A stretch of 64,000 nucleotides of DNA, taken from Muscardinus avellanarius (lineage: Eukaryota; Chordata; Mammalia; Rodentia; Gliridae). Below, piece by piece: positions 16,836 through 57,357 of the stretch. The stretch's first letter is position 1. Each line of letters starts with the position of its first letter. The notes beneath the pieces are model-generated. The model had not been told where the DNA came from, did not search any database, and saw only the letters and a list, made by a program, of their open reading frames with translations. Where the stretch lies: assembly GCA_963383645.1 (NCBI GenBank), contig OY726559.1:125637721-125701720 (forward strand), given 5' to 3'. A program made the position numbers and the translations under genes.

Positions 16836-19697
16836 CAAAACAGTCTGTACCTTCTCTTCCTCAGGAAGTGTCTCTGGCTAGAATCACTTCTTCCCCCAGC
16901 AGCTCTCACAATGATCGACACTTGCTCTCCAGGAGCCGGCACATCTACTGTCCCAAACCAGCAACTCATGGGATTTAGAAAAGCACTGTAGACCCACACA
17001 GCTGTGACCCTCTGTCCATCAGAGCAGCAGCAAATGCCCCAGCTCAATCAGGCTCCTCTTCTCTGACCACTCAGTCTCTTTGTATGTACATATTATACAG
17101 AGGACCACTCTCTAGATTATTAGGGTGGTATATAGATTATAAAGGAACGCAGATCACTACTGAAACGTAGGTTATGCCATGTTCTCTGTTGAATCTCTCT
17201 AATGTGGCAAGTTATTACAAGTTGTGAATACTGAGTGTGTGGCTTCACCTAAGAGAGCCAGAAAAGAGCATTTTAAATTGTTTTGAAGAATGCCCTAGAG
17301 AATTGGTATGGCACAGGCCAGTGAAACGTCCCTTTTTTTCCTCTCCCTCAAATCATTTAATTCAGTTTACCAGACACTTACTGAGCACAGCTACGCATGG
17401 GGCATTGAATCTGAGCATAGAGATGACAGTCACAGAGGCTCCTATAACAGAAGGTGAAATGTAAAGGGTCATGAGGAAAATGTCAAAGGGCCGGGGCCAT
17501 TTGGAGGAAGGTAAGAAGAAAGAGGAGACTTTAAGGCTTCCTGGAGGAGGCAAGGCTTCAGGCAGGCCCTGGATCTGGAGGGTTTCAATAGAGGGGAGCG
17601 AGAGGGCTAAGGGGCTGTCTGCTCTTCTGCAGCGAGAGACCTGAAACCACTTCCCTTGCCCATCCTGGAGTCAAAGGTCTCTGGGCTGCCTGTTAAGGCT
17701 GGGAAGAACAAAGAAAAGGTTTGCTGCCAACTTCCAAAATTGCACAGGCCGCAGAGTTGGGGGCAGGGATGCTCGGAGGTCGTTTGTGCGAAGTCCAATT
17801 TACAGTTAGGACTACACTTGAGTCAATTAAAATGTTTTATTAGCGGGAATCTGAATCTCTTACCTTCATTAACATTTAACAGTAAATGGGAGAAAAAAGG
17901 TAAATAAAATATTATCTGGCTTTTTAAAGGTCATTTCAGACTGAGCATTATAAAATGAGAACTGGGGAAGAGCGGGCTGGCCCTTTGTGTGGATTTAGCA
18001 CATGGAGCCCTCCATGTGCGTGGATCTATAGCCCTGTCTTCCAGCGCCGGCATTAGGACACCTCATGGGCAGGTGAGATGCTCAGAGGTAGATTAATTAC
18101 ACTTAGCACCTTTGAGGCAGGTTGGGGGAGAAGTGGGCCTGACATGGGAGAATTAACTTTTTGCTTTAGATCTCAGATTATAAATCATTTGGGGTAAGTA
18201 GCCCTTAGTAATTGCTCTTGTAACACCTGCCTTCTAACACCCTGGGCCAGGAGCCTGAACTGATTAAATGGCATACCTAGCCATTCCCCTGCAGGAAAAA
18301 AGTGCAAGGAAGACCTGTGCCAGGTCCCACCGGGGCTCCTGAGGGCCTGAGGGAGTGAGCAGCCATTGGGGAGAGGCCACTCGCCCACCCCAGGCACTCT
18401 GTGGACACTGGACATCAAGGCCTGCTGTTGGAAGCTATAAGCCAAAATAGGACAGCTTGACAAAAATATAGACACTTGAGTCAAAGGGAAACCCTTTTTG
18501 TTTTTTTAATTTTCTGAAGTGTAGAGCCAGAAATGACTTAAAAGCCATCCCGAAGATACCCAGTGAATATTCCACCCCCCAGGTCTCCCCTGGAGGTAAA
18601 ACCCAGGGGGTGAAACTTTAGCCTCCTCTGACCTTGGGGAAGCAGCAGGAAGCCCAGGGGTTCCCAACAGAGGAAAGAGACCTTTCTAGAACTCTCCATC
18701 AGAATGGTGGAGCAAGAAGAAGACCCAGCCACCCCTGACGGGGCTCCTGAGGACTGCAAGGATTTCCTGATCACCGTGCTCTTTGCCATGGGTGACAGAG
18801 TGGGCAGGGAGCAAGGGGGACCCTGGACCTGGGGCAACAAACAAACCCTAGAGAGTGGGCAGCTCCCCCCTTCTTCAATAATGGCATGATCTTCCTCCAT
18901 GAGGAAAAGCTATGTAGCTAAGCACCTTCTTGGTCTTCTTTGAGATTAGGATATTTGGCCTTACTGTATCTGAAGATAGGGGTGGGGAATGAATTGAGAG
19001 CAAAATAAATATTTCCTAATTTTAAATAAATATTGCTAAGCAGAGTGATGGTGTTCCTAAGCACAATGTAATTAGATAAATACAATGAGTAAAATTAGGA
19101 GGGAAAATGGGGGATTTTACATATATAAACACAAACCCCAAATTTGATTTTATTTTGCTAAAAGCATCTGGTCTAGCTCACTAAATGTCAGAGGCTGCTA
19201 CTTGCTGTCCTTCCAGCGCTCCCTCAATTAGGGGCGAGAAGACGGCCTCTCTGCATCCAAACCTGAAGGTAAATATCACAGACTTCAGCACAACAACAAT
19301 GATGACCTTTCCCGGTTCCATTTAACAACTTTATTTTGCATTTAGTCTAGCAAAGAAATGAGGAGAGTGCTGTGGGAGGTGGGAAACCCAAGCCCTAAAC
19401 AGCACCTCCTCCGCCCCATTCTCCACGACCTTGTCTGTTTCCTTTTCTGGATGCAGAGTAAATTCTAGAAACTTCTAGAACACCCTAAGAAGTGGGGACA
19501 CTGCTGAGCCTGAAAGACCTTTGTCATTGAGGTATGCAAGGCCATAGCAGAAGGCAGGGAAACGAGACTGTGTTTTCAATGCCATCCAGAGAAGCCAACA
19601 TTGCGTGTATATATGTACATGTGTATTTGAGTTCTCCACACATAGACATGCATGCTGTTATCCAAAAACACTGTCATATTGGGTTCCTGTTAACCAT
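16836..19697. other. Long unique stretch
   Basis: No transposon recognised. Bases 17790-18200 are rich in homeodomain-like TAAT/ATTA words (for example GATTAATTACACTTAG and CAGATTATAAATCATTTG), which is compatible with a conserved enhancer. Overlapping open frames around 18185-18900 on both strands have no domain. Confidence 0.4.
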
Positions 19698-33321: not shown

Positions 33322-34350
33322 ATGAAGAAGATGCCAAGACAACAGAAATACAAACCTGATAACTCTGAAAACATGAAAATAAAGAACAACAAGGAAACAA
33401 TAAACTCCCACAACTCAACTACAAGGGAGATCAACAATACAGACCTACAGGAATTGCCAGAAGGAGAATTCCAAATTTTAATCTTCAATAAGATCAGAGG
33501 CCTTAAAGAAAATGTACAAGAAATTAAATGTACAGGAAATTAAAGAGATAAATTTTCAATAGAGAAATTGAGGCCCTAAATATAAACAAAAAAGAGGCTT
33601 TGAGTGAAGTGAAGGAGTCAGTGAATTAAAGACTGCAATAGAAACCACTTCTGGAAGGCTAGACCATAGGAGAAATAGAGTATCACTCTTGGAAGAGTAT
33701 CTTGTCTTAGAAGACAGTTTATTCAAAACTGAAAACATAGTCAAAAATATAGAGAAGACAATATAACATGACCTGAACATCCAACAATTATGAAATAATA
33801 GAAAATGACCTAACTTATGGATAATAAGCATTGAAGAAGATCTAGAAGCAAAAATCAAGGGCATTAGAAACTTCTTCAGACCAGGTTTGGTGGCATACAC
33901 TTATAATCTCAGTACTTGAGAGGCTGAGACAGGAGGATTGTAGGTTTGCAACCAGCCTAAGCAATTTAGTGAGACCCTCAGCAATTTAATAAGACCTTGT
34001 TTCAAAATAAAATAATGAAGTAGTACTGGGGGTGTAGCTCAGAGGTAGAAAGCCCCTTGGTTCAATCCCTAGTACCACAAAAAGAAGAAGGAGGAGGAGG
34101 AGGAATAAGAGGAGAAGGAGGAAGAAGAGAAGGAAGAGGAGGAGAAACCTCTTCAGAAAAATAATATCAGAGAATTTCCCCCAAGTAGAAAATTATTTGG
34201 ACATTTACATACAAGACACATTCAGAACACCAGCGAGACATGATCAAAGATAGACTTTCTCATACCATGTGATAATCAAAATGAGTAACATAGAGTCCAA
34301 AGGAAAAAGTCTTAAAAGCAGGGGCAAAGCAATAAGAAATAGACCTCACT
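33322..34350 (+). pseudogene. L1 ORF1 relic (copy D)
   Basis: Begins with a lysine-rich N-terminus and 'STTREINNTDLQELPEGEFQ', the start of an L1 ORF1p. It is followed by coiled-coil-like sequence, broken by stops, to 33880. A SINE (33881-34143) splits it. The continuation at 34144-34300 matches the 'ENFPQVE...RTPARHD...VIIKMSN' region at the RRM junction. The C-terminal domain appears to be missing. No translatable product. Confidence 0.75.
33881..34143 (+). mobile_element. B1-ID SINE with (GGA)n tail in L1 ORF1
   Basis: 'CCAGGTTTGGTGGCATACAC' to 'CCTAGTACCAC', then a GAAGGAGG-rich tail. The flanks GAAACTTCTTCAGA and GAAACCTCTTCAGA form a duplication with one mismatch, so the purine repeat belongs to the SINE tail. 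Confidence 0.92.
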
Positions 34351-34384
34351 CAAAAATAGACCTCAAAATGGCAGGAAATAACAA

Positions 34385-35290
34385 TCATATCTAAATGATA
34401 ACACTAAATGGCAATGATCTTAACTTCCCAATGAAAAGGCATAAACTAGTAATGTGAATTAAAGACCATAATTCAACTACATGCTGCTTGCAAGAAACTT
34501 ACCTTACAGCCAAAGATACCTGTACATTAAAGTTGAGAGGATGGAAAAAGATATAAAATGCAAATGGAGACCAAAAACAAGTAGAGGTAACAATGGTTAT
34601 AGCTGACAAAACAAAGTTTAAGGTAAAACAAATTAGAAGACTCAAAGAGGGACACTTCTTATTACTAAAAGAAAAACCCCAAAAGAAGATATAATGATAG
34701 TAAACACTTAAGCCCCAAATGTGGGTGCACCTACTTTTATAAAACAAACTCTTTGGGACATAGTCCTCAAATAGACCCAAATACAATAATATGTGGCAAC
34801 TTTAACACACCATTCATACCATTAGACTGAGCTTCTGGGCCAAAAATAAAAAAGACTCTTCAAACCTAAACAACACTATAAACCAAATGAACCTAATAGA
34901 CATATACAGAATATTTCAACAGCTGAACACACATTCTTCTCATCTGCCTGAGGAAACTTCTTTAAAATAGACCACATTATAAGCCACAAAGCAAGTAACC
35001 AACAAATTTAGAATGTAATATAATTCCTTACATCTTCTCATAGCACAATGAAATGAAAGTAGACATCAACAAACAACAGGAAGATCAAAATATTTGCATA
35101 AATAGACTGAATAAATATTCTTGAATGGATTGGATTAGAAAAGAAAAAAAGGAAAATATAAAAATTTCCTAGAATTAAATGAAAATAGAGACACACAAAA
35201 TCTATGGAACACTTTGAAGGCTGTTTAAGAGGAAAATTTATAGCACTGACTGTCCATATAAGAAAAACAGAAAGTCACCAAATAACCTAA
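34385..35290 (+). pseudogene. L1 ORF2 endonuclease domain relic (copy D)
   Basis: In-frame fragments match the L1 apurinic/apyrimidinic-type endonuclease: 'LNGNDLNFPMKRHK', 'CCLQETYLTAKDT', 'LRGWKKI', then the IYAPN-like and DHI-like regions. Many stops. The next ORF2 sequence belongs to the far C-terminal part, so the polymerase domain is absent. Confidence 0.75.
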
Positions 35291-44330: not shown

Positions 44331-44373
44331 CAAACCAATACATTGGCCATGATGATCAATATTGGCAAACCTG

Positions 44374-44389
44374 ACTTCCGGGAAGATGG
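44374..44389 (+). promoter_or_regulatory. ETS-like plus YY1-like motif at element start (copy E)
   Basis: The first 16 bases hold ACTTCCGG (complement of the ETS core CCGGAAGT) immediately followed by AAGATGG (YY1 core). Human L1 has a YY1 site at the same place, where it positions transcription initiation. A promoter role here is inferred from that analogy. Confidence 0.6.
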
Positions 44390-44637
44390 TGACTGAGAAA
44401 AGTGGGGCTTAAGAGCCCCACTAACAACCAATCTCTATTACCACAAAATCAGCGCCTTTCATAGCCAGAAAACACCATCACCAGAGAAACAAAAAAATGT
44501 AATTACAAGGGACAGAGAAAAAGAGGGCTGGAAAAACGGGACACCAGAAAGAAACCAGACTGCAGTGCTGCAGCCAGAGCCGTGGCGCGGAACGGCAGGC
44601 ACCATCTTTCCTTGCAGCGTCAGCCCCAGAGAGGAGG

Positions 44638-45070
44638 GGGACTCAGAACGGAGCTCAGAGACACAGAGAAGATACGCCGGCCTCACGCCCGAGGATGCGG
44701 CAGCAGCACCTTACTGCCAGTGGCAGCAGCGAGTTCACCAGACGGCTACGGCTACAGACCAATGCACTCAACAGCCCACCAGGCTCCAGAGAGAAGCGGA
44801 TGACAGCGAGCCGAGGTGAGCCGCTGCGGAACAGCCAGGCGGGATTCGGCAGATTTTTCCACGCAGGGAGCATCTTAAGCTCCCAGTGGCTGGGTTTAGC
44901 ACACCCTGCAGGGACTCAGAGTGGAGCTCAAAACCAGAGAAGAAATACGCCAGCCTCACGGCCGAGGGCGTGGCAGCGGCGCCATATTGTCACTGGCAGC
45001 AGCAGCAGTGAATTCACCGAGTCCACGACAGCTCCATCACTGCACTCAACAACAGTGAGTCAAATTGCGG
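44638..45070 (+). repeat. Two-unit tandem 5' UTR repeat (copy E)
   Basis: A unit starting GGGACTCAGAACGGAGCTCA (44638) recurs as GGGACTCAGAGTGGAGCTCA (44911), 273 bases later. Both contain the blocks 'CGCCGGCCTCACGCCCGAGG' / 'CGCCAGCCTCACGGCCGAGG', GCGGCAGCAGC-like and GGCAGCAGC. The layout recalls promoter monomers of rodent L1s. Confidence 0.8.
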
Positions 45071-45345
45071 CCCCTAGAGGAGAAATCCCAGTACTGCACT
45101 CCCAGGGACTTGACCCAGTGGGGGTGGCGGTGGCAGAGATATCACACCATAGGAGAACGCCCAACCTGACACCCCCCATAGTCTAAAGCAGCCTCTATCG
45201 ACTCCCTGGGTCGGAGACTCTGTGATGCAACCTAGTAAAGGAGTAGTGGGGTCTGAGATACCACAGACTCGAGATCCAGAGCACCTTAAGTGAAGTCGTA
45301 GTGACTCAAGGGAAGAACCCAGAGAAGGCACAAACTTCCGAAATC

Positions 45346-46261
45346 ATGGGAAAGAGGAATAACACTGGAGCAATGAATGTCCACAACCCCACAACATCAG
45401 AACCTGATAAAACAGAAATTCAGAGATTTCTAGAAGATCAAATCAGGAAAATAACGGTAGAAATAATAGAGGTGTTTCAAAAAGAATTCAGAGAGAGCCA
45501 AAAAGAGATAAAGGATGCAATTAATGAAGTAAAGGCCTCAATTCAAAGTACAAACAACTGATTAGACCACATGGAGAATAGAATCTCGCTCCTAGAAGAT
45601 GATCACTCCAAAAATGAATGCATAGTTTCTAATCTAGAAAAAAATACCCGAAAGCAGGAATCTGACATTGAAGAAATATGGGCCCATTTTAAGAGAGCTA
45701 ACCTAAGAATAATTGGAATAGAGGAGGGAAAAGAAGATGAAAGCAAAGGGATCAACAATATCTTCAAGGAAGTAATAGCAGAAAAATTTCCAAACAGAGC
45801 AAGAGGTTGATACACAGGTCCAGGAAACTTATAGAACTCCCTTTAGACAGGATTGGAGAAGAGGATCCCCACGCCACATAATTGTCAAAATGACCAATGT
45901 GGAAGCCAAGCAGAGATTCTTAAAGGCAACAAAAACAAAGGGCCAAGTGACATTCAGAGGCAAACCAATTAGAATCACTCCAGACTTCCCAAACCAAGTC
46001 ATGAGAGCCAGAAGGGCTTGGAGTAACATATTCCAAACTCTGAAAGAAAACAACTTCCAGCCAAAAATTTCCTACCCAGCAAAACTTTCTATCAAATTAG
46101 ATGGAGAAATAAGAAGCGTCCATGACAAACAGAAACTGAAGGAGTTTATGTCTTCAAAACCAGCGCTAGAGAAAATACTCAAAGAGATTAACTACAAAGA
46201 AGAAATAGATAACACACACCAGAACCAGAGAAACAAGATTCTCCATCGAACAGACAACTAA
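45346..46261 (+). pseudogene. L1 ORF1 (RNA-binding chaperone), copy E, two lesions
   Basis: The L1 ORF1 protein is an RNA-binding, trimerising chaperone that packages element RNA in a cytoplasmic particle. ATG at 45346. The N-terminus starts MGKRNNTGAMNVHNP, and about 45420-45680 is coiled-coil-like (charged heptads, 'MENRISLLEDDHSKNE'). The RRM and C-terminal domain follow, with 'RHIIVKMTNVEAKQRFLKAT', 'GKPIRITPDF' and 'NFQPKISYPAKLS'. The stop TAA is at 46259-46261. Two private lesions break it: a TGA at about 45559-45561, where the sister copy has CGA, and a 2-base loss near 45796-45800. Without them it is 305 codons, somewhat shorter than the 338 residues of human ORF1p. From 45890 to the stop, 119 of 123 residues match the sister copy. 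Confidence 0.92.
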
Positions 46262-46477
46262 GATTGGTTATCTGTGGAGATTCATTATTTATGTTAGTCT
46301 TTTACCTATCTCTAAATTGTATTGTTTGCTTTTATTGTTGTTAATTTTTAGGATTTCTAGTTGGAATATTAATATACCTTCAGATATAGCATTTGGAAAT
46401 ATTTTATCCTATTATATCAGTAACTTTTAACTCTTTACATTGTCTTGGATATACAATTTTTATTTTTTTATTTTTTA
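46262..46477 (+). other. AT-rich spacer of the composite element (copy E)
   Basis: About 215 bp after the ORF1 stop, shared with the second copy. I recognise no L1 sense sequence or other family in it. No open frame of note. Confidence 0.6.
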
Positions 46478-46962
46478 GGGAGTTTGTATACTCTTCTGTT
46501 GCCTGTGCCATTGAAATCATATTCAAGAAATCACTGCCAATTTCAATGTTGTGAGGTTTTATGACCCAGATTTTCTTCTAAAAGTTTATAGTCTTAAGAT
46601 TTATATTTAGGTCTTTTATCTATTTTGAGTTAATATTTGTATATGGGATTAGGTAAGGGTCCAATTTTATTCTTTTTCATGTAACTATTATTTTTCAACA
46701 ATATTTAGTTAAAAGATTATTATCTCCTCCACCAAATGTCTGTGGAAACCTTGTCAAAAATAACTTGACAATATATGGAAGAATTTAGCTCTAGGCTTGT
46801 TTTTAACTCCAATGGTTTATATATCTGCCTTTAGAACAGTACTACACTGTTTCAATTATTGTAGCTTTATATGGTTTGAAATCAGAAAATATACATCTTC
46901 TAGCTTTGTTCTTTTTTGAGATTGTTTTGGGTATCTAGAGTCCATATTCTATATTAGGATAG
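46478..46962 (-). mobile_element. Inverted L1 ORF2 3' segment inside the composite element (copy E)
   Basis: Reads as the complement of L1 ORF2 near its C-terminus. Plus-strand landmarks are 'CTGTTGCCTGTGCCATTGAA', 'GGTAAGGGTCCAATTTTATT', 'ATATATCTGCCTTTAGAACA' and 'AGATTGTTTTGGGTATCTAG', the familiar antisense of that L1 region. It is present at the same place and orientation in the second copy, so it is a fixed part of the element and not a later insertion. Confidence 0.88.
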
Positions 46963-47326
46963 ATTTTTTCTGAAAAATAAATATATAAATATATGATAGT
47001 TTCACCTAAAAAAAAAAAGAAAAAAATATTCTCTGGTAAGAAAGAAAGCAAAAAGAAATATTGAAATGTTATCTTTAAGTCATCAAAAGCTTGGTATCAG
47101 ACAAATGAAACTGTTATGTGAGATTATCATTTTTAAGTTTGGATAAATTGCTATAATACTAGATGTCAACCACTAAGCCAAGCATGGGAAGGAGGGATGG
47201 GGAGGGAATGGGGTGGGGATCGGGTGGGGGCTGTCTGGGCAATGGGTGCATGTATGTCTACAAAAGTTTTTTTGTATCCCACTATGATGTATGAATACAG
47301 TGCACCAATAAAAAATAAATTAAAAA
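46963..47326 (+). mobile_element. L1-like 3' UTR of the composite element (copy E)
   Basis: Contains an A-run near 47008-47020, a G-rich polypurine tract (about 47187-47231, groups such as GGGGTGGGG and GGGTGGGGG) typical of L1 3' UTRs, and the end 'CACTATGATGTATGAATAC' then 'GTGCACCAATAAAAAATAAA'. The G groups could fold as a G-quadruplex. Confidence 0.8.
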
Positions 47327-47369
47327 AATATTGGCAAACCTGTGAATGGCATATCAAGAACTGAGGCTT

Positions 47370-47615
47370 TATCTATTCAAATTATAAAACCAGGAGACTA
47401 GTTCTCCTCTAAGTGCTTTATAGATAGTCTTATTTAGTCTTTAAGATACCTCTCTGAGATAGGTTCTTTTATTTTTCCTATTTTATAGTGGAAATGCCGA
47501 GGCACAAATAGAGTTTATCTCACCCAAGGTCACATGGCTAATGAGCGGGGAAGCTAGGAACTGAACCAGGCAGACTGGATCTACTGTCCTCGCTATAACC
47601 TCTGAGGTGCTCCAG
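47370..47615 (+). mobile_element. MIR element
   Basis: 'CTCTAAGTGCTTTATAGATA', 'CCTATTTTATAGTGGAAATG', 'CCCAAGGTCACATGGCTAAT' and 'GAAGCTAGGAACTGAACCAG' are MIR blocks in order. Confidence 0.88.
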
Positions 47616-48635
47616 TTTTCACAGTAAATGGAGATATCCATGACAGAGCACTAAACCACGTATGCAAACTCTCTGGGTTTAGAGGTAATTTCTGTGACTC
47701 TATCTAGCTGATTTCTAAAGTCCATCTCAGCTTCATATGCTAAGCAAAAGGCAAAGAGAAAATCCTGACTTCCCAACTTATGCCTGGATAGGAGAAACTC
47801 AGACTTGAGTGGTTCTAGCTCCCAGTCTTGTGCCCTGCTTCCTTTGCTCGCTGGAACGTGCGTGAACCTCACTGCAGTTACCACTGGCACTGACCACCTG
47901 GTTGCTGATTAGTGAGAGCTAGTGAACAGAATTCAGGAGAGCCTGGGCTCCACAACACCCTCTCTTTGAACAGGCTGCAGCTGCCTCTGAGGTGGTTCTT
48001 TGGCCAGGATGTGGTCGAATATTCACACTTAAAAGCCCACTGAAGGGGACTTAAAAGAAACAACAACAGAAGCAGGTGGAATAGAAGTGACCTAGTCACC
48101 TTTTGCCCTCAGTGCTGCTGCAATATCTGGGAAGAACTGGGCAGACCAGCCATGCTGGACCCTAAACCTCTCTGTGATTCCCGCCTTGCTGCTCCTTTGA
48201 ATAGAACTCCTGCCAGGGACTCATTCCATGGTAAAACAACCTCAATTGGAGAGGGAATTGCTGCTGGAATTCAAAGTAAGTGTGGAGGGGAAGAGTCTAA
48301 TTTGAGGAACTGGAATTTCAGCAAAGGTGACTTAGTTTCTTGATTGGCAAATTGAGAGGTGCCTTTTAGTGCCCAGGGGAAGCTCGCAGCTGAGGGGCTC
48401 TCGGCTTGAAATAGGTGGAGTGGGGCTTGGAGAGTGTGGCAGACTGCACGTCTGCACGTCGTGTTGGTTTTCTCCTTTCGCAAACAAAGCAGTTCAAGAT
48501 TCTGTCCTTCTAGGTGGCTTTGTTCAGTTTATATCCTGGGGTTAAACCTCCTAGGGAAATGAGATTATAAAAACAAATGGGAGGGGAGAGGGAAAGGGGG
48601 ACCTATACCAGAGGGTTAAACAGTGATGCTGATTC
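47616..48635. other. Unique non-coding sequence
   Basis: No exon or transposon recognised. Open frames of 60 to 80 codons only. Confidence 0.4.
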
Positions 48636-48652
48636 AAAATCAGGGATATTTA

Positions 48653-48875
48653 TTTATTTATTTATTTATTTTGCAGGTCTGGGGATGGAACCCAGGGGCA
48701 TTCGACCTCCGAGCTACAGCCCCTGCCCTATTTTTTTTTTCTTTATTTTGAAACCGGGTCTCACTGAGTTGCAGAGGGCCTCACAAAGTAGCTGAGGCTG
48801 TCCGCGAACCGCAATTCTCAGGTCTCAGCCTCCCAAATGCTGGGATTACAAGCATGTGCCACCACGTCCAGCTAT
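48653..48875 (-). mobile_element. B1-ID SINE with perfect TSD
   Basis: (TATT)n tail, 'GGGGATGGAACCCAGGGGC', end 'CCACCACGTCCAGC'. Perfect duplication AAAATCAGGGATATTTA at 48636-48652 and 48876-48892. Confidence 0.95.
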
Positions 48876-48993
48876 AAAATCAGGGATATTTAGATTTGAA
48901 AAAAATGTTATGTCATCTATTTTGATATAAGTGGTCAAATTCAAATGACAAATATTTTAGTAATCCTCTCCAAAACATTGTACATTATTCCGT

Positions 48994-49196
48994 CTTTTTT
49001 TTGTGGTAATGGAGATTGAACATAGGGATGTTCTACCTCTAGTCTACACCCCCAGCCTTTTTCATATTTTGTTTTGAAACAGGGTCTTGCTAAGTTGCTA
49101 AGAGTCTTGGTAAGTTGCCAAGGCTGTCCTCAACACTATGATCCTCCTGCCTCAGCCTCCCAAGTACTGGGAATACAAGTAGCTACCACATCCAGT
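48994..49196 (-). mobile_element. B1-ID SINE (older)
   Basis: 'GTGGTAATGGAGATTGAAC' to 'GTAGCTACCACATCCAG'. Confidence 0.85.
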
Positions 49197-49318
49197 TTTC
49201 TGTCCTCAAGAGTTTTGTTTGTTTGTTTGTTTTTTGCAGTACCTTACTGTGACTGAACTGTCCATTTGCCCCACATGGTTTCCTTGCACACACCTCAAAT
49301 CCAGAATATTGAAAACTG

Positions 49319-49320
<2 letters not shown>

Positions 49321-49365
<45 letters not shown>

Positions 49366-49368
49366 TGT
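49321..49368. repeat. (GT)n microsatellite
   Basis: About 24 GT units with one interruption, adjoining an ID element of the minus strand (likely its tail). Confidence 0.95.
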
Positions 49369-49369
49369 T

Positions 49370-49673
49370 TTCCTAGGGATCAAAAACTAGGGCTTTGCAC
49401 ATGCTGGGCAAGAACTCTATCATTGAGCTGGGCATGGTGGTGCACGCCTATAATCCAAGTACTTGGGAGGCTGAGACAGGAGGATCAGAGGTGCAAGACC
49501 AGCCTTAGCAATGTAGTGAGACCCTCAGCAATTTAGTAGGACCCTGTTTCAAAATAAAAAATAGAAAGGGCTGGGCTTGTAGTTCAGAGATAGAATGCCT
49601 CCAAGTTAAAATCACAGAAAACAAAAACAAACAAAAAAATGAGCTCTACCACTGAGCTACATCTATAGGCAAA
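49370..49673 (-). mobile_element. ID element split by a SINE
   Basis: 'GGGATCAAAAACTAGGGCTT' and 'CATGCTGGGCAAGAACTCTA' (49376-49425) continue at 49641-49673 with 'CTCTACCACTGAGCTACATC'. The plus-strand SINE lies between, and the ctctaYcaYtgag segment is present on both sides as its target duplication. Confidence 0.85.
49426..49640 (+). mobile_element. B1-ID SINE inserted in an ID element
   Basis: 'GCTGGGCATGGTGGTGCACG' to 'CTGGGCTTGTAGTTCAGAG', with a CAAA-rich tail. Confidence 0.9.
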
Positions 49674-49754
49674 GGCTGAGGTCTTGATTTACTCTCCCAA
49701 ACTCTTTCTGAAGCAGCTGTCCCTTCTCTAAGTAGCACTTTATCTTTCTAGTTG

Positions 49755-50425
49755 TTCAAGCCAAAATGAAACAAAACAAAATCCCTGTGGGGTGATCCTG
49801 GACGTCACACTTGGTTAGATCCATGCTTCATTGAATCCATCAACAAATCCTGTCCTCTCTCTTGAAAACATGTACTCAGAACCAGCTCTCTTCCTCACAG
49901 CCTTCTCCCTGGCTTCCTGCTTCCACCCTTGACCCCATTTCCCTGTTCTCAGCACCACAGCCAGGGCAGGGCTCTTACACCAACGCGCAGGTCTTGTCAC
50001 TTGTCTGCCTACAGCCTTCCTGGGGCTTCTCACATTTCCCTCAGTGTCGAAGCCTTGCCATGGCCTGGCCTGTGCGCTTGCTCCTTCTGCCTGGCGTGTT
50101 CTCAGCCCTGGACTCCTCATGTCCACGTGGGGCCTCCTTTGCTCTCAGGCTTCCCACAGAGCTCTTCCTGGTTACGCTATTTAAATTGCAAACTTCCCTC
50201 AGTCCTATTTTCTATCCCCTATCTCCTTCGCTGGATCTTTTTTCCCTCCATAGCACTTACCACCACCTGGTAAATTTATATTGTATTTATTTATCTTGGT
50301 TGCTGTCTGTCTACCCCCACTTGATTTGTAAGATACATAAGAGCTGAAATTTTCCTGTTTTTTTAATTGATGTATCCCTCGAACCATAATGCCTGAACAG
50401 TCAGTACTAGGCTTTTAGTAGGGAA
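49755..50425 (+). mobile_element. L2 element (3' portion)
   Basis: 'CTTGCCATGGCCTGGCCTGT', 'CTTCTGCCTGGCGTGTTCT', 'CCATAGCACTTACCACCACC' and 'ACCCCCACTTGATTTGTAAG' match L2 blocks in order. Open frames of 103 to 161 codons across it are incidental. Confidence 0.8.
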
Positions 50426-50457
50426 GAAGGAAGGAAGGAAGGAAGGAAGGAGGAAGG
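50424..50457. repeat. (GAAG)n microsatellite
   Basis: AAGG units in tandem after the L2 end. Confidence 0.9.
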
Positions 50458-50459
50458 AA

Positions 50460-50980
50460 TCCAAAATTATCAGTGGAGTAGTACATATAAGAACAATTGT
50501 TGAAAGATAGACTCAATGATTCTGGAATTATAAATTAAAGCATTGAACATTAAAAGAAATATGAGAGCCAATAAAACAAGAATGTTTGGTATGCATATTT
50601 ATAAATACAGAGCATGCATATACACATGCATACACACAATGAATTTGTAAGTCTTCTACTAAAACTGAAATAAAAGTTCCTATAGAATAAGAAATAATCA
50701 CTGGAAACCAATGATATGATTTCAGTATTACTAGTAGAAATATATAAGATGTCATTGAGATTGTTTTTGTTAACAGTTTGTTTCTGTGTTTTAGTTTTCT
50801 GAATAAATAACCATTAATGGGCTTTCATAGATTTATTTTTTCTTTCAGGTCCCAATCATGGTTTTCCACTTAAGTGTCAGGTTTCTTAATTTCAAATTGT
50901 TTTACAATAGCACTCACCAAGAACCAAACCCCTAAACTGTAGATACATTTATGCATTCCTTTTTATATCAGAAATAAATA
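50460..50980. other. AT-rich unique sequence
   Basis: No feature recognised. Confidence 0.4.
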
Positions 50981-51200
50981 AACCAAGCACGATGGCACAT
51001 GCCTGTAATTCTACCCCAAAGAGGCTGAGCCAGGAGAATTCCAGATTCAAGGCCAGCTTCAGCAGCTTAGTGAAACCCTGTTTCAAAATTAAAATTAAAA
51101 AGGGTTGAGTGTGCAGCTTGGAGATAGAATCCCCTGGGTTCAATTTCTAGTACCACTAAATAAAGAACTACATACATACATACATACATACATACATAAT
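50981..51200 (+). mobile_element. B1-ID SINE (older) with (CATA)n
   Basis: 'CCAAGCACGATGGCACATGC' to 'TTCAATTTCTAGTACCAC', then an (ATAC)n repeat at 51171-51198. Confidence 0.85.
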
Positions 51201-51340
51201 ACATACATATAAAAGACATACTAATTATCTAGTGTTGGGGCTTCTAATTCTTCCATGAGGACAGCTTCCTCCTCTCCCTCCCGCCTCTGCCTCCTCTTTT
51301 CCCCTTCTCCTCTCCACCTTCCTCCTACTCCTTTTTCTTC

Positions 51341-51412
51341 TGTGCTGGGGATTGAACCCAGGGCTTATGCATGTTAGGTAAGTGCTCCACCACTGAGCTA
51401 CATCCTTAGCCC
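51341..51412 (-). mobile_element. ID element
   Basis: 'GTGCTGGGGATTGAACCCAG', 'GGTAAGTGCTCCACCACTG', 'AGCTACATCCTTAGCCCC'. A pyrimidine-rich tail precedes it (51258-51340). Confidence 0.92.
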
Positions 51413-51589
51413 CATTAGTACAACCTCTAATGAGAGTGCATGCAAAGCAAAATTTTCTCTCTCCTCAATGCCATAGAGAACAGATGTCATTATTTCCTCT
51501 TAACAAATGACCACTCATATAGATCATAGTAGCTATAAAAAACAAAGTAAAGGAATAGCAAACTAAATTCAAAGAAAGCAACAGAAAGG

Positions 51590-51785
51590 CCGGGCATGGT
51601 GGCGCACGCTTGTAATCCCCGCACTTGGGAGGCAGAGACAGAAGGATCGCGCAGGTTCGAAGCCAGCCACGTGTGCTGGCTTAGGAGACCCTGTTTCCAA
51701 ATAAAAATGTAAAAATAGGTCTGGGAGTGTAGCCCGGAGGTAGAAGGGCTTCCAGGAACACCAGTACCACCAAAAAAGAAAAAGA
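51590..51785 (+). mobile_element. Young short-form B1-ID SINE with perfect TSD
   Basis: 'CCGGGCATGGTGGCGCACGC', B-box-like 'GGTTCGAAGCC', 'GCTGGCTTAGGAGACC'. Perfect 18-bp duplication AAGAAAGCAACAGAAAGG at 51572-51589 and 51786-51803. Confidence 0.95.
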
Positions 51786-51817
51786 AAGAAAGCAACAGAA
51801 AGGAATTAATAAAGGAG

Positions 51818-52050
51818 GAGCCAGGAGTGGTGGCACATGCTTGTAATCCCAGTACTTGGGAGGCTGAAACAGGAGGACCACAGATTCAGGACCAGCCTTT
51901 GCAACTTAGCGAGACCCTGTTTTAAATAAAAAATAAAGTAGAGATGGTGATGTAGCTCTGAGATAGAATGCTTTTAGGTTTAGCTCACAGCACACACACA
52001 CCAAAAAAAGGAAGGAAGGAAGGAAGGAAGGAAGGAAGGAAGGAAGGAAG
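51818..52050 (+). mobile_element. B1-ID SINE with (GGAA)n tail
   Basis: 'GAGCCAGGAGTGGTGGCACA' to 'GCTCACAGCACACAC', then GGAA units at 52010-52050. Confidence 0.9.
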
Positions 52051-52081
52051 GCAGCCATGAAATATATAAGAAATATATAGT

Positions 52082-52290
52082 AGAGTCTGGTGTGATGGCA
52101 CACACCTATACTCCTAGTACCTGGGAGGCTGAGATGAGAGGATCACAGATTTGAGGACAGCCTCAATTTAGCAAGACCCTCAGCAATTTAGTAAGATCCT
52201 GTTTCAGAATAAAAAAAAATTATAAAGGGGCTGAAGATATAGCTCAGAGGTAAAATACCCCTGGCTTTGATCCCCAGTACCAAAAATAAG
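52082..52290 (+). mobile_element. B1-ID SINE (diverged)
   Basis: 'AGAGTCTGGTGTGATGGCAC' to 'TTTGATCCCCAGTACC'. Confidence 0.88.
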
Positions 52291-52622
52291 TGAATACATA
52301 AATAAATAAAGACATACAATTGAGATCAACAAACAAGAGTGAATTATTTAGAGAAGTACATAAAATTAACAAGCCATAGCTGAGAATGATCAAAAAATAA
52401 AAGTCACAAATATGAGAAATGAAGAAAGGGGCATTATTAAAAATACCTTGGAAAACTGACAGAGAATGAGAGAATTAGCAACTAGTTTCTGTCCTTATGT
52501 TTGATTAATTTATGCAAATGGAGGCATTCCTAGAAAAGTTTGACTCCAGAAGAAACAGAAAACTTGAAACCACAAATAGAATTAATAGTTTAAATTTTTT
52601 CCAAAAGAGAAAATACAACTCA

Positions 52623-52797
52623 TGCTGGGTGTGGTGGCGCATGCTTGCAATCCCAGCATTCGGGAAGCAGAGACCAGAGGCCCTTTGCAACTCACTGAGA
52701 CCCTGTTTCAAAAAATATAAAGACTAAAAAGTAAGGCCGGGGGTATAGCTTGAAGGCAGAATGCCCCTGGGTTCCATCTCCAGTACCATAAAATAAA
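52623..52797 (+). mobile_element. B1-ID SINE with internal deletion
   Basis: 'GCTGGGTGTGGTGGCGCATG', then 'AGCAGAGACCAGAGGCCC', missing part of the B1 right end. The flanks GAAAATACAACTCAT and GAAAATATAACTCAT form a duplication with one mismatch. Confidence 0.9.
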
Positions 52798-52995
52798 AAG
52801 AAAATATAACTCATATAAAACTAATTCCCAGTTAATATAAAGCTTGATTCTAAAATTTATTAGGACCACAGGTGAGAAAATAAATCTAAGGCCAATCTCA
52901 CTCAAAAATTCTTAGGAAATTATTTGTGAGCCGAATTCTATAATATTTGAGTTCTGTAACATTATGAATATATACTAATGTATTATGATCAATGG

Positions 52996-53370
52996 GGTTG
53001 TGTTAGCTTTCTGTCATTGTAACAAAATACCAGAAATAATCAACTCATAAAAAAGAAAGGTTGGCTTGTGGTTTCAAAGGTTTCAGTCCATGGTTACTTG
53101 GCCCCATTGCCTTTGTGGCTATGGTGGCGCTGTAGATCATGAGGGCAAGGAAGCTGCTCAGGTCACAGAAGTTGGGAAGCAAAGGAAGAGAGGAAGGAGT
53201 GGCCAGAAGCCAAATAGCCATGTCCAGGGCCTGCCCCAATGACCTAACTTCCTTCCACAAGACCCCACCTCCTAAAGGTTCTACTACTTCTCCATAGCGC
53301 CATGGGTTGGGGACTAAGCCTTCAACACAGGAGCCGTTGGGGGACATTTATACAAACCATAGAGTGGATT
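52996..53370 (-). mobile_element. MaLR LTR
   Basis: Plus-strand landmarks 'TGTGTTAGCTTTCTGTCATT' and 'GTAACAAAATACCAGAAATA' are the complement of a MaLR 3' end. It continues to 'GGGGACATTTATACAAACCA'. Confidence 0.8.
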
Positions 53371-53390
53371 TTACCAATATACAAACACAC

Positions 53391-53395
<5 letters not shown>

Positions 53396-53438
<43 letters not shown>
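53396..53438. repeat. (TA)n microsatellite
   Basis: Pure alternating AT of about 42 bases. Confidence 0.95.
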
Positions 53439-53440
<2 letters not shown>

Positions 53441-53869
53441 AACTAATATAGTTTACCAATTTGCAAACTAATATCTGATGATCAGATGATCAAAGTAACT
53501 TTTAGCAAACTAGAATTAGGAAAGAAATTTTTTATTCCAACAAAAAAAAAATCTTTAGAAATCCTAAAGCAAATGCATTTAATCATAAAATATTAAAAGC
53601 TTTCCCTTTGCAATTGAGAACTAGGTAAGGATGTTTTCTATAACTATTTTCATGCAATACTGTACTAGAGGCCTTTGACAAGATAATATGAAAGAGAAAT
53701 AAAGGTTGTATAAGGTTTAGAAAAAAGAAATGCAGCTTCATTATTCATGGATAATTATTATATAAATAGAAAATTCTTAAATCTACAGATAAGTTATTAG
53801 AATTTACACAAATTTGGGAATTTCTAGAACAAAAATCTCTATATAAACCCATACTAGTAATGATACTTT

Positions 53870-54113
53870 CAGCTGGGTGCAGTGGTGCACACCTATAATC
53901 CCAGGTACTCTAGAGGTGAAGGTAGGAAGATGTCAAGTTTGAGGGCAATCTGAGCAACTTAGCAAGAGCTTATCTCAAAATAAAAAATAAAAATGGCTAG
54001 GGGTATAACTCCATGGTAGACTGTTCCTGTATTAAATCACTAGTACTGGGGAAAAGAAGACAAAATAAGAAAGAGGAAGAGGAAGAGGAAGAGGAGGAGA
54101 AAGAGAAAGAGAA
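53870..54113 (+). mobile_element. B1-ID SINE with (GGAAGA)n tail
   Basis: 'CAGCTGGGTGCAGTGGTGCA' to 'AAATCACTAGTACTGGGG', followed by an AGAGGA-rich tract (54066-54113). Confidence 0.85.
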
Positions 54114-54236
54114 ATTGTGGAATTAGTGCAGAGATAAATAAGTGGTCCACTAGACCAAAATATAAAGCCCTAAAACAGACTTTGGCATGTGACAGAGGTA
54201 GCAAAGCAGAGCAGTTAAAAATTGACATAAATGGAG

Positions 54237-54254
54237 ACTTCCGGGAAGATGGCG
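54237..54254 (+). promoter_or_regulatory. ETS-like plus YY1-like motif at element start (copy F)
   Basis: ACTTCCGG at 54237-54244 and AAGATGGCG at 54246-54254. The YY1-like part here is the full consensus, whereas the sister copy has AAGATGGTG. Inferred transcription start region by analogy with human L1. Confidence 0.6.
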
Positions 54255-55025
54255 ACCGAGAAAAGTGGGGCTTAAGAGCCCCGCTAACTACCAATCTCCA
54301 TTACCACAAAATCAGCGCCTTTCATAGCCAGAAAACACCATCACCAGAGAAACAAAAAAATCACCAGGCTCCAGAGAGAAAGCGGACTGAGAATAGAGCT
54401 CAGAGCCACAGAGGAGATACACCGGCCTCATGCCCGAGGACGCGGCAGCAGCGCTATACTGCCGGCGGCAGCGGTGATTTCACCAGACAGCTACAGCAAG
54501 CCGAGGTGGCCGCTGCGGAACAGCTAGGCGGGATTTCTCGGCGAAGGTACATCTAAAGCTCCCAGTGGCTGAGCTCAGCACACGCTGCAGGGATTCAGAG
54601 TGGAAATCAAAACCAAGAAGAAATACGCCAGCCTCACGGCCGAGGGCGTGGCAGCAGCGCCATATTGCCACCGGCAGCAGCAGCAGAGAATTCACCAAGT
54701 CCAGTACGGCTACATCTGCGTACTCAAGAACAGTGAGTCAAATTGCGGGCCACAGAGGAGAAATCCCAGTACTGTACTCCCTGGGACTTGACCCAGTGGG
54801 GGAGTGGCGGTGACAGAGATATCACACCATAGGAGAACGTGCAACCTGGCACCCCCCACAGTCTAAAGCAGCCTCTATCGACTCTCTGGGTCGGAGACTC
54901 TGTGATACAACCCAGTAAAGGAGTAGTGGGGTCTGAGATACTACTGACTCGAGATCCAGAACACCTTAAGTGAAGTCATAGTGACCCAAGGGAAGAACCC
55001 AGAGAAGGCACAAACTTCCGAAATC

Positions 55026-55942
55026 ATGGGAAAGAGGAATAATACTAGAGCAATGAATGCCCACAACCCCACAACATCAGAACCCGATAAAGCAGAAAAT
55101 CAGAGATTTCTAGAAGATCAAATCAGGAAAATAACTGTAGAAATAATAGAGGTGCTTCGAAAAGAACTCAGAGAGAGCCAAAAAGAGATAAAGGATGCAA
55201 TTAATGAAGTAAGGCCTCAATTCAAAGCACAAACAACCGATTAGACCACATGGAGAACAGAATCTCGCTCTTAGAAGATGATCACTCCAAAAATGAATGC
55301 ATAGTTTCTAATCTAGAAAAAAATATCCGACAGCAGGAATCTGATATTGAAGAAATATGGGCCCATTTTAAGAGAGCTAACCTAAGAATAATTGGAATAG
55401 AGGAGGGAAAAGAAAGTGAAACCAAAGGGATCAACAATCTCTTCAAGGAAGTAATAGCAGAAAATTTTCCAAACATAGAGCAAGAGGTTGATACACAGGT
55501 CCAGGAAACTTATAGAACTCCCTTTAGACAGGATTGGAGAAGAGGATCCCCACGCCACATCATTGTCAAAATGACCAATGTGGAAGCCAAGCAGAGATTC
55601 TTAAAGGCAACAAAAACAAAGGGCCAAGTGACATTCAGAGGCAAACCAATTAGAATCACTCCAGACTTCCCAAACCAAGTCATGAGAGCCAGAAGGGCTT
55701 GGAGTAACATATTCCAAACTCTGAAAGAAAACAACTTCCAGCCAAAAATTTCCTACCCAGCAAAACTTTCTATCAAATTAGATGGAGAAATAAGAAGCTT
55801 CCATGACAAACAGAAACTGAAGGAATTTATGTCTTCAAAACCAGCACTAGAGAAAATACTCAAAGAGATTAACTACAAAGAAGAAATAGGTAACACACAC
55901 CAGAACCAGAGAAATAAGATTTTCCATCCAACAGACAACTAA
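55026..55942 (+). pseudogene. L1 ORF1 (RNA-binding chaperone), copy F, one frameshift
   Basis: Same 305-codon ORF1 as in the other copy, with ATG at 55026 and stop at 55940-55942. A single lesion is visible: one A is missing in GTAAGG near 55210-55212 (the sister has GTAAAGG), which shifts the frame before the coiled coil. The downstream 230 codons (55250-55942) are open and cover the second half of the coiled coil, the RRM ('RHIIVKMTNVEAKQRFLKAT') and the C-terminal domain. Codon 1 context is 'AAATCATGGG' with a G at +4, adequate for initiation. Confidence 0.93.
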
Positions 55943-56153
55943 GATTGGTTATCTGTGGAGATTCATTATTTATGTTAGTCTTTTACCTATCTCTAAATTG
56001 TATTGTTTGCCTTTATTGTTAATTTTTAGGATTTCTAGTTGGAATATTAATATACCTTCAGATATAGCATTTGGAAATATTTTATCCCATTCTATTAGTA
56101 ACTTTTAACTCTGTTTACATTGTCTTTGGATATACAATTTTTTTTATTTTTTA
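55943..56153 (+). other. AT-rich spacer of the composite element (copy F)
   Basis: Matches 46262-46477 of the sister copy with small indels. Origin unrecognised. Confidence 0.6.
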
Positions 56154-56636
56154 GGGAGTTTGTATACTCCTCTGTTGCCTGTGCCATTGAAATCATATCC
56201 AAGAAATCACTGCCAATTTCAATGTTGTGAGGTTTTATGACCCAGATTTTCTCCTAAAAGTTTATAGTCTTAAGATTTATATTTAGGTCTTTTATCTATT
56301 TTGAATTAATATTTGTATATGGTGTAAGGTAAGGGTCCAATTTTATTATTTTTCATGTAATTATTATTTTTCAACAATATTTAGTTAAAAGATTATTATT
56401 TCCACCACCAAATGTTCGTGGAAACCTTTTCAAATATAACTTGACAATACAGGGAAGAGTTTAGCTCTAGGCTTGTTTTTAACTCCAATGGTTTATATAT
56501 CTTCCTTTAGAACAGTACTACACTGTTTCAATTATTGTAGCTTTATATGGTTTGAAATCAGAAAATATATATCTTCTAGCTTTGTTCTTTTTCAAGATCG
56601 TTTTGGGTATCTAGAGTCCATATTCCATATTAGGAT
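56154..56636 (-). mobile_element. Inverted L1 ORF2 3' segment inside the composite element (copy F)
   Basis: Same inverted segment and same junctions as 46478-46962. Landmarks are 'CTGTTGCCTGTGCCATTGAA' and 'AGATCGTTTTGGGTATCTAG'. Small differences from the sister ('GGTGTAAGGTAAGG' versus 'GGGATTAGGTAAGG') are ordinary divergence. Confidence 0.88.
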
Positions 56637-57357
56637 AGATTTTTTTTCTGAAAAATAAATATATAAATATATAATAGTTTCACCAAAAAAAAAAATAGAA
56701 AAAAAACATTCTCTGGTAAGAAAGAAAGTAAAAAGAAATATTGAAAGGTTATCTTTAAGTCATCAAAAGCTTGGTATCAGACAAATGAAACTGTTATGTG
56801 AGATTATCATTTTTAAGTTTGGATAAATTGCTATAATACTAGATGTCAACCACTAAGCCAAGCATGGGAGGGAGGGATGGGGAGAAAATGGGGTGGGGAT
56901 CGGGTGGGGGGTGACTGGGCGATGTGTGCATGTATGTCTACAAAAGTTTGTATCCCACTATGATGTATGAATACAGTGCACCAATAAAAAATTTTAAAAA
57001 ATTGACATAAATGATGCTGGAAGAACTTGGTATCCCTTGGAGAAAACTGAAATTGGACCCTTGTCTCATAAAATATGTAAATAATAATTGTGGATAGATT
57101 TTAAGAACTAAATTTAAAAGACAATACTATAAAAACTTTAGAAAATAATACAAAAATATATTTATGACCTCAGAGTAGAGAATGATTTCTTAATCAAGAC
57201 ACTTAAAAATTCTAACCATAAAGGATTATAAATTTTTACCACATTAAAACTATGTTTAGTAAAGATAGCTTTAAAAAAAGAAAAGATAATTTCCCCTATA
57301 GAATGAGTGAATCTAATTGCCAATACATATAATCAGTGGGAGCCTACTATCCACTAT

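Follow-up and report, generated by a model that had tools for sequence, protein, structure and literature searches.

An ORF1-only, HAL1-type L1 family in Muscardinus avellanarius with a 3′ tail common to young autonomous L1 elements

The window analysed here, a stretch of 64,000 nucleotides (nt) of the Muscardinus avellanarius genome (GenBank assembly GCA_963383645.1, contig OY726559.1, positions 125,637,721 to 125,701,720 of the forward strand), contains two copies, termed A and B, of an element composed of an L1 5′ untranslated region (UTR), the open reading frame ORF1 and a tail, without ORF2. In all probability these copies represent a large HAL1-type (half-L1) family, a non-autonomous retrotransposon derived from one host L1 lineage and copied in trans by the L1 ORF2 protein (ORF2p). 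The same tail, built on an antisense L1 fossil, ends the L1s of an apparently young autonomous family, and we advance tentatively, at somewhat less than an even chance, the view that this ORF2-intact family took its 3′ tail from its own ORF1-only parasite, which is about 25 times as numerous by junction counts.

Two full-length insertions

Copies A (44374–47326) and B (54237–56996) lie on the + strand about 10 kb apart and are 94.6% identical over an alignment of 2747 columns. Both are real, full-length, separately inserted elements. Copy A is bounded by an exact 16-nt target-site duplication, AATATTGGCAAACCTG (44358–44373 and 47327–47342), and copy B by an exact 17-nt duplication, AAAAATTGACATAAATG (54217–54233 and 56997–57013), which follows directly on TT, the arrangement of a TT/AAAA site. 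A preliminary description of this DNA had reported two insertions with their own duplications of 16 and 17 bp, which we confirm; its limits for copy A were exact, but its start for copy B (54234) includes three added bases, GAG (54234–54236), that stand ahead of the ACTTCCGG start of the element. The features of the two copies are as follows.

44358–44373, no strand: left target-site duplication of copy A (16 nt, exact match to 47327–47342)
44374–47326, + strand: full-length ORF1-only element, very probably HAL1-type, copy A (aligned with copy B and 38 other loci)
44374–45345, + strand: 5′ UTR of copy A, with tandem units at 44638–44730 and 44911–45003 (78% identical to that of one autonomous L1)
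45346–46261, + strand: ORF1 region of copy A, broken; 305 codons in intact copies (tblastn, Pfam, alignment)
46262–47005, − strand: antisense fossil of copy A, C-terminal part of an L1 ORF2, ends approximate (tblastn, alignment, translation)
46262–46415, − strand: about 154 nt of fossil present in ORF1-only copies and absent from the eight autonomous L1s sampled
46416 onward, − strand: part of the fossil in common with the young L1 3′ UTR
46976–47027, + strand: AATAAA with an A-rich run 26 nt later, a possible relic poly(A) site (AATAAA in 39 of 40 copies)
47028–47150, + strand: stretch found also in the single young L1 for which the complete tail sequence was read
47151–47312, + strand: L1 3′ end with a G-rich tract and a terminal AATAAA (about 79% identical to an older L1)
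47327–47342, no strand: right target-site duplication of copy A
54217–54233, no strand: left target-site duplication of copy B (17 nt, TT before it)
54237–56996, + strand: full-length element, copy B, with a shorter 5′ UTR (GAG at 54234–54236 ahead of it)
55026–55942, + strand: ORF1 region of copy B, broken by a 1-nt deletion (reading frames, Pfam, tblastn, alignment)
55943–56680, − strand: antisense ORF2 fossil of copy B, ends approximate (tblastn, translation)
56997–57013, no strand: right target-site duplication of copy B

A dispersed family with constant junctions

The host assembly searched amounts to 2.5 Gb. A 41-mer across the ORF1/tail junction, with at most 3 mismatches allowed, occurs at 19,555 genome places (9772 + 9783), and its reversed sequence, used as a control, at none. 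When a 501-nt query over both junctions named in the preliminary description (46200–46700) was used, the best 40 of 1462 candidates all covered the full span at an identity of at least 96%; 38 of the 39 matches other than copy A were fetched and, with both window copies added, form the aligned set of 40. Both boundary regions (near 46262 and 47150) are kept in 40/40 aligned copies, in each of which the end of ORF1 passes straight into the antisense fossil. A query from the end of ORF1 gave the same picture: the best 40 of 502 candidates match at 98% or more, and all 10 that were read onward enter the same tail.

In 32 of the 38 fetched copies the start lies no more than 30 nt from the 5′ end of copy A, and the other six begin at copy A positions 50, 64, 649, 1162, 1778 and 1788. 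Duplications of at least 10 nt flank 22 of the 38 copies, versus 17 of 1406 mismatched pairings. The proposed mobile ORF1-only L1 derivative, with further copies that keep the junction regions and carry distinct duplications, is thus substantiated. Among the fetched copies that begin near the 5′ end and have a duplication of at least 10 nt (n = 20), 18 have 0–4 extra 5′ bases, mostly G, which we interpret as cap-derived additions; of the remaining two, L023 shows an overlap and L048 a stretch of 17 nt.

Some individual loci have features of their own. L012 and L026, two independent ORF1-only copies, both lie inside older L1s, at one and the same point shortly before ORF2. At L012, a tract of about 300 nt (copy A coordinates approximately 45600–45900) matches, at 99–100%, an older L1 lying next to the copy in inverted orientation, a pattern suggestive of local gene conversion. 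At L033, more pieces of the element surround the copy, possibly as nested insertions.

Composition of the tail

On the antisense strand, one continuous decayed L1 ORF2 occupies the sequence between the ORF1 stop (46261) and approximately 47005. The antisense translation of copy B, with X at stops, matches human ORF2p residues 858–1080 (E 1.5e-21), leaving no more than a few codons between the match and the ORF1 stop, so that no separate spacer exists and position 46478 falls inside the fossil. The AT-rich spacer with a junction at 46478, as first described, is accordingly rejected in favour of a single fossil spanning both parts; the junction at the end of ORF1 (46262) stands, and the true second boundary lies near 47150, at the start of sequence common to older L1 3′ ends. 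The L1-like 3′ end and the A-rich end were described correctly. An internal AATAAA, present in 39 of the 40 copies and followed 26 nt later by an A-run in copy A, may be a relic poly(A) site.

In the register of copy A, 13 of 14 fossil stops are common to at least 30 of the 40 copies, and the fossil was therefore already dead at its capture. Its source can be judged from an older L1 adjoining L026 that matches copy A at 85.6% through ORF1, as far as the ORF1 stop, and then goes on into ORF2; the last 155 nt or so of this L1 are 79% identical to the end of the element. Because the ORF2 of this related L1 is only 59% identical to the fossil, the latter is not the ORF2 of the element's own lineage. 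Inverted ORF2 sequence is thus present in the tail as reported, but the idea that the element carries its own inverted ORF2 fragment is rejected, given this identity to an L1 with a closely related ORF1 and the common stops; judged by its sequence, what lies inverted here is the decayed remnant of an ORF2 from a distant L1. With splicing in mind as a possible origin of the ORF1/fossil junction, the sequence after ORF1 was inspected by eye in three autonomous L1s, and a GT is present at L026 and absent at L012 and L059.

5′ UTR and ORF1

The tandem 5′ UTR of the preliminary description is borne out by two 93-nt units in copy A, 78% alike, whose starts lie 273 nt apart. The 5′ UTR of copy B is about 185 nt shorter, and of the 36 aligned copies long enough to include the block at 44500–44540 of copy A, 8 have it. 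In a 555-column match, the copy A 5′ UTR is 78% identical to that of one autonomous L1. At L069 (C1:109098540–109099290), the autonomous L1 5′ UTR opens, over its first 150–230 nt or so, with GC-rich short degenerate repeats, and this run gave no alignment to ORF1-only copies in the 5′ UTR comparison.

In intact ORF1-only copies, the ORF1 product has 305 amino acids (aa). The L1 ORF1 domains Transposase_22 and Tnp_22_dsRBD were both detected by Pfam in the 230-aa open part of copy B, and the ORF1 of an intact copy (L010) matches a solved LINE-1 ORF1 protein (ORF1p) at E 4e-58. The complete-length ORF1 ascribed to the window copies is indeed full length, but its reading frame is not intact in either: in copy A it is interrupted by a stop at codon 72 and by the loss of 2 nt near 45795, and in copy B by a 1-nt deletion. 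Of the 40 aligned copies, 16 have an ORF1 frame that stays open over 300 aa or more. A protein search returned 87 matches, the best at 75% and 70% identity (ENA records), with squirrel and marmot L1 proteins at 49–58%; a marmot ORF1p used as query found mostly host frames at 44–53% identity, part of them belonging to the ORF1-only family. A scan of IMG/VR for relatives yielded 6 pattern matches, of which 0 were confirmed.

Autonomous L1s that carry the same tail

A genome search with RVT_1, from which the best 150 of 26,730 candidates were considered, found an open frame of exactly 1278 aa in 71 of 149 rows. One of these autonomous L1s, locus C1 (reverse transcriptase match at 109102055), was read in pieces; its ORF2 frame is open for 1278 aa, its ORF1 is 93.4% identical to that of copy A over 803 nt, and about 36 nt past the apparent ORF2 stop it enters the same tail, from copy A position 46416 to the end, at 91.7% / 92.2% identity. 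In seven further L1 loci from the best 150, for which 181 nt at the ORF2 end were compared, the tail junction is present in 7/7 (five identical), which makes 8/8 of the autonomous L1s sampled. With the 181-nt L1 junction as query, the best 40 of 985 candidates are all 100% identical, and by hand comparison 19 of these 40 lie at a fixed distance from reverse transcriptase matches. A 38-mer across the L1 tail junction (at most 3 mismatches) occurs at 781 places (399 + 382), with 0 for the control. The tail does not, therefore, set the ORF1-only element apart, since young autonomous L1s carry it as their 3′ UTR, in which the fossil has ordinary L1 sequence on both sides.

Overall, 22 ORF1-only copies differ pairwise by 5.0% on average, a value that drops to 3.0% within the fossil, and the median end branches measure 0.016 in the tail tree and 0.015 in the ORF1 tree. 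When 501 nt of the tail of a little-diverged copy (L038) were used as query, the best other copies were 98–99% identical (39 of the best 40 besides the query itself, from 1617 candidates). Because these values stand against identical L1 junctions, the ORF1-only burst appears to be older than the L1 burst, in a comparison of best-match lists with queries of unequal length (501 nt for the ORF1-only element, 181 nt for L1). The ORF1-only amplification thus looks older, and perhaps over, and the L1 family with this tail appears to be very young. In a ground squirrel, L1 is reported to be silent (PMC5857283); the L1s of the present host look young instead.

Probable mobilisation in trans

Neither window copy contains an ORF2-like frame of at least 100 aa among its open reading frames, in line with the earlier statement that no reverse transcriptase is encoded; L1 ORF2p must therefore copy the element. 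Mobilisation in trans, which the preliminary description also proposed, is what we infer from the sequences, and open ORF2 frames exist in the genome. The element RNA would start at an L1-like 5′ end, code for the 305-aa ORF1p and end in a composite tail, made up of the ancient antisense L1 fossil, the stretch at 47028–47150, the last 160 nt or so of an L1 3′ end, and an A-rich end. L1 ORF2p would copy this RNA by target-primed reverse transcription, and the element's own ORF1p presumably acts on the RNA that encodes it.

Several observations weigh against this interpretation. The 38 loci are the best matches to copy A and no random sample, and 16 of the 38 lack a duplication of at least 10 nt by the rule used. 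The ORF1 of locus C1, the sole L1 read through ORF1, has a stop near the N-terminal part. Selection on ORF1 is weakly supported: outside CpG sites, singletons comprise 66 synonymous and 186 non-synonymous changes, and variants in 2–3 copies 14 and 42, where the expected ratio of non-synonymous to synonymous changes is 3.3; variants in 4–20 copies comprise 13 and 22 against the same expectation.

Competing histories of the tail

Upstream of the point where the tail begins in L1, the fossil continues without a break for about 154 nt in ORF1-only copies, a stretch absent from the eight L1s sampled, and the capture was therefore once longer than in these L1s. One history that accommodates this, with a chance approaching even, is that the ORF1-only element came first, amplified, and later passed its tail to L1. 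It would have originated when transcription of an L1 5′ part with ORF1 ran on through adjoining DNA that contained an antisense L1 fossil and reached a short, truncated 3′ end of an L1; the transfer would then have been a template jump from abundant ORF1-only RNA to L1 RNA within the L1 3′ UTR. This sequence of events is consistent with the junction counts (19,555 with the 41-mer versus 781 with the 38-mer), with the greater divergence of ORF1-only copies beside near-identical L1 copies, and with the 0 places found for a long-form L1 in one exact-motif search over a 0–60 nt range, narrow as that search was. A tail tree rooted with the 150-nt ends of seven older L1s likewise nests the L1 tail among ORF1-only tails; the root of this tree, however, is placed on one lone row, and a topology that unites the 40 ORF1-only rows in a single clade survives the AU test (p-AU 0.546), with a slightly better score.

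Alternatively, and with a probability that also falls moderately short of one half, the long fossil was first acquired by an ancestral L1, within the 3′ UTR, the ORF1-only element arose from that L1 by an internal deletion from the ORF1 stop into the fossil, and L1 later lost about 154 nt. The ordinary L1 sequence that flanks the fossil on both sides in the L1 3′ UTR agrees with such a course, and the ORF1 and tail trees both permit L1 as sister to the ORF1-only copies. In the unrooted tail tree, L1 groups with L034, L046 and L033 (99/97). In the tree built on ORF1, for which the bootstrap had not yet converged, it stands in an open fork with the ORF1-only rows except L012, the copy with the converted tract. 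An extra deletion is required, however, giving three events instead of two, and the narrow search for the long-form L1 that this course implies came back empty. On account of fewer events and of abundance, passage of the tail from the ORF1-only element to L1 is slightly favoured, the two being near even.

Antisense pieces in L1 insertions have been taken as signs of twin priming (PMC13174262), and the copies could accordingly be regarded as individual twin-priming or internally deleted L1 insertions; this is highly improbable, since the junctions are identical in 40/40 copies and the inverted piece, at 59% identity to the related L1 ORF2 and with its stops in common, derives from a distant L1 and not from the same L1 copy. 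Twin priming in each copy is thereby ruled out for the family, and the founding event alone could fit it. Segmental duplication of one aberrant insertion, which two copies on one strand 10 kb apart might suggest, is rejected for the pair as having next to no probability, as the preliminary description had also held, because the duplications are separate and different, the flanks (1 kb on each side) have in common only two 11-nt matches, at chance level, and the junction occurs at 19,555 places.

Relation to known elements

ORF1-only L1 derivatives are known as HAL1 and have had several independent origins (PMC5322556, PMC5753468), so that the kind is a known one; the novelty put forward earlier, an ORF2 replaced by its own inverted fragment, does not hold. 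HAL1 elements are L1-derived, have ORF1 only, end in poly(A) between duplications and rely on the L1 reverse transcriptase and endonuclease (PMC5322556, PMC5753468); in the present family we found an L1-derived codable ORF1, no ORF2, an A-rich tail with duplications, and a dispersed uniform set of copies. It differs in number, with 19,555 junction places here versus nearly 2,100 human copies (PMC5322556), figures obtained by different counting methods, and in its tail, which is based on an antisense fossil of L1 and occurs in a young L1 family as well. A literature search found this family unnamed in the titles and abstracts listed; a repeat-library entry, a source not compared here, may already exist.

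Other composites offer partial parallels. SVA and LAVA composites are not known to have an L1 ORF1 gene of their own. They resemble the element as non-autonomous composites mobilised by L1 (PMC7353768). In chimeric L1 insertions, too, template switching or RNA fusion has linked L1 with foreign sequence, but those catalogued are separate events in the human lineage (Law & Burns 2026, PMC13174262), whereas here one chimera occupies thousands of places. Compared with the replacement of L1 3′ UTRs, the present case differs in that a non-autonomous derivative has the new UTR as well, and retains it in a longer form.

A half-L1 at about 20,000 places, part of its copies with an open ORF1, beside an L1 with the same tail amounts to a natural experiment on the contributions of ORF1p and of the 3′ tail to mobilisation in trans. 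The same pair bears on whether L1 can retake parts from its parasites; if the tail did pass from the parasite to L1, this would be a direct case in which recombination between a non-autonomous element and its helper shaped the helper.

Neighbouring L1 sequence in the window

The right flank of copy B (57008–57149) matches the ORF2 of the fossil at 67% in the opposite orientation, and copy B therefore apparently landed in an old L1 relic. Farther upstream, positions 33373–35285 hold an older L1 with ORF1 pieces, whose protein is 30–43% identical to that of the element, and the start of ORF2.

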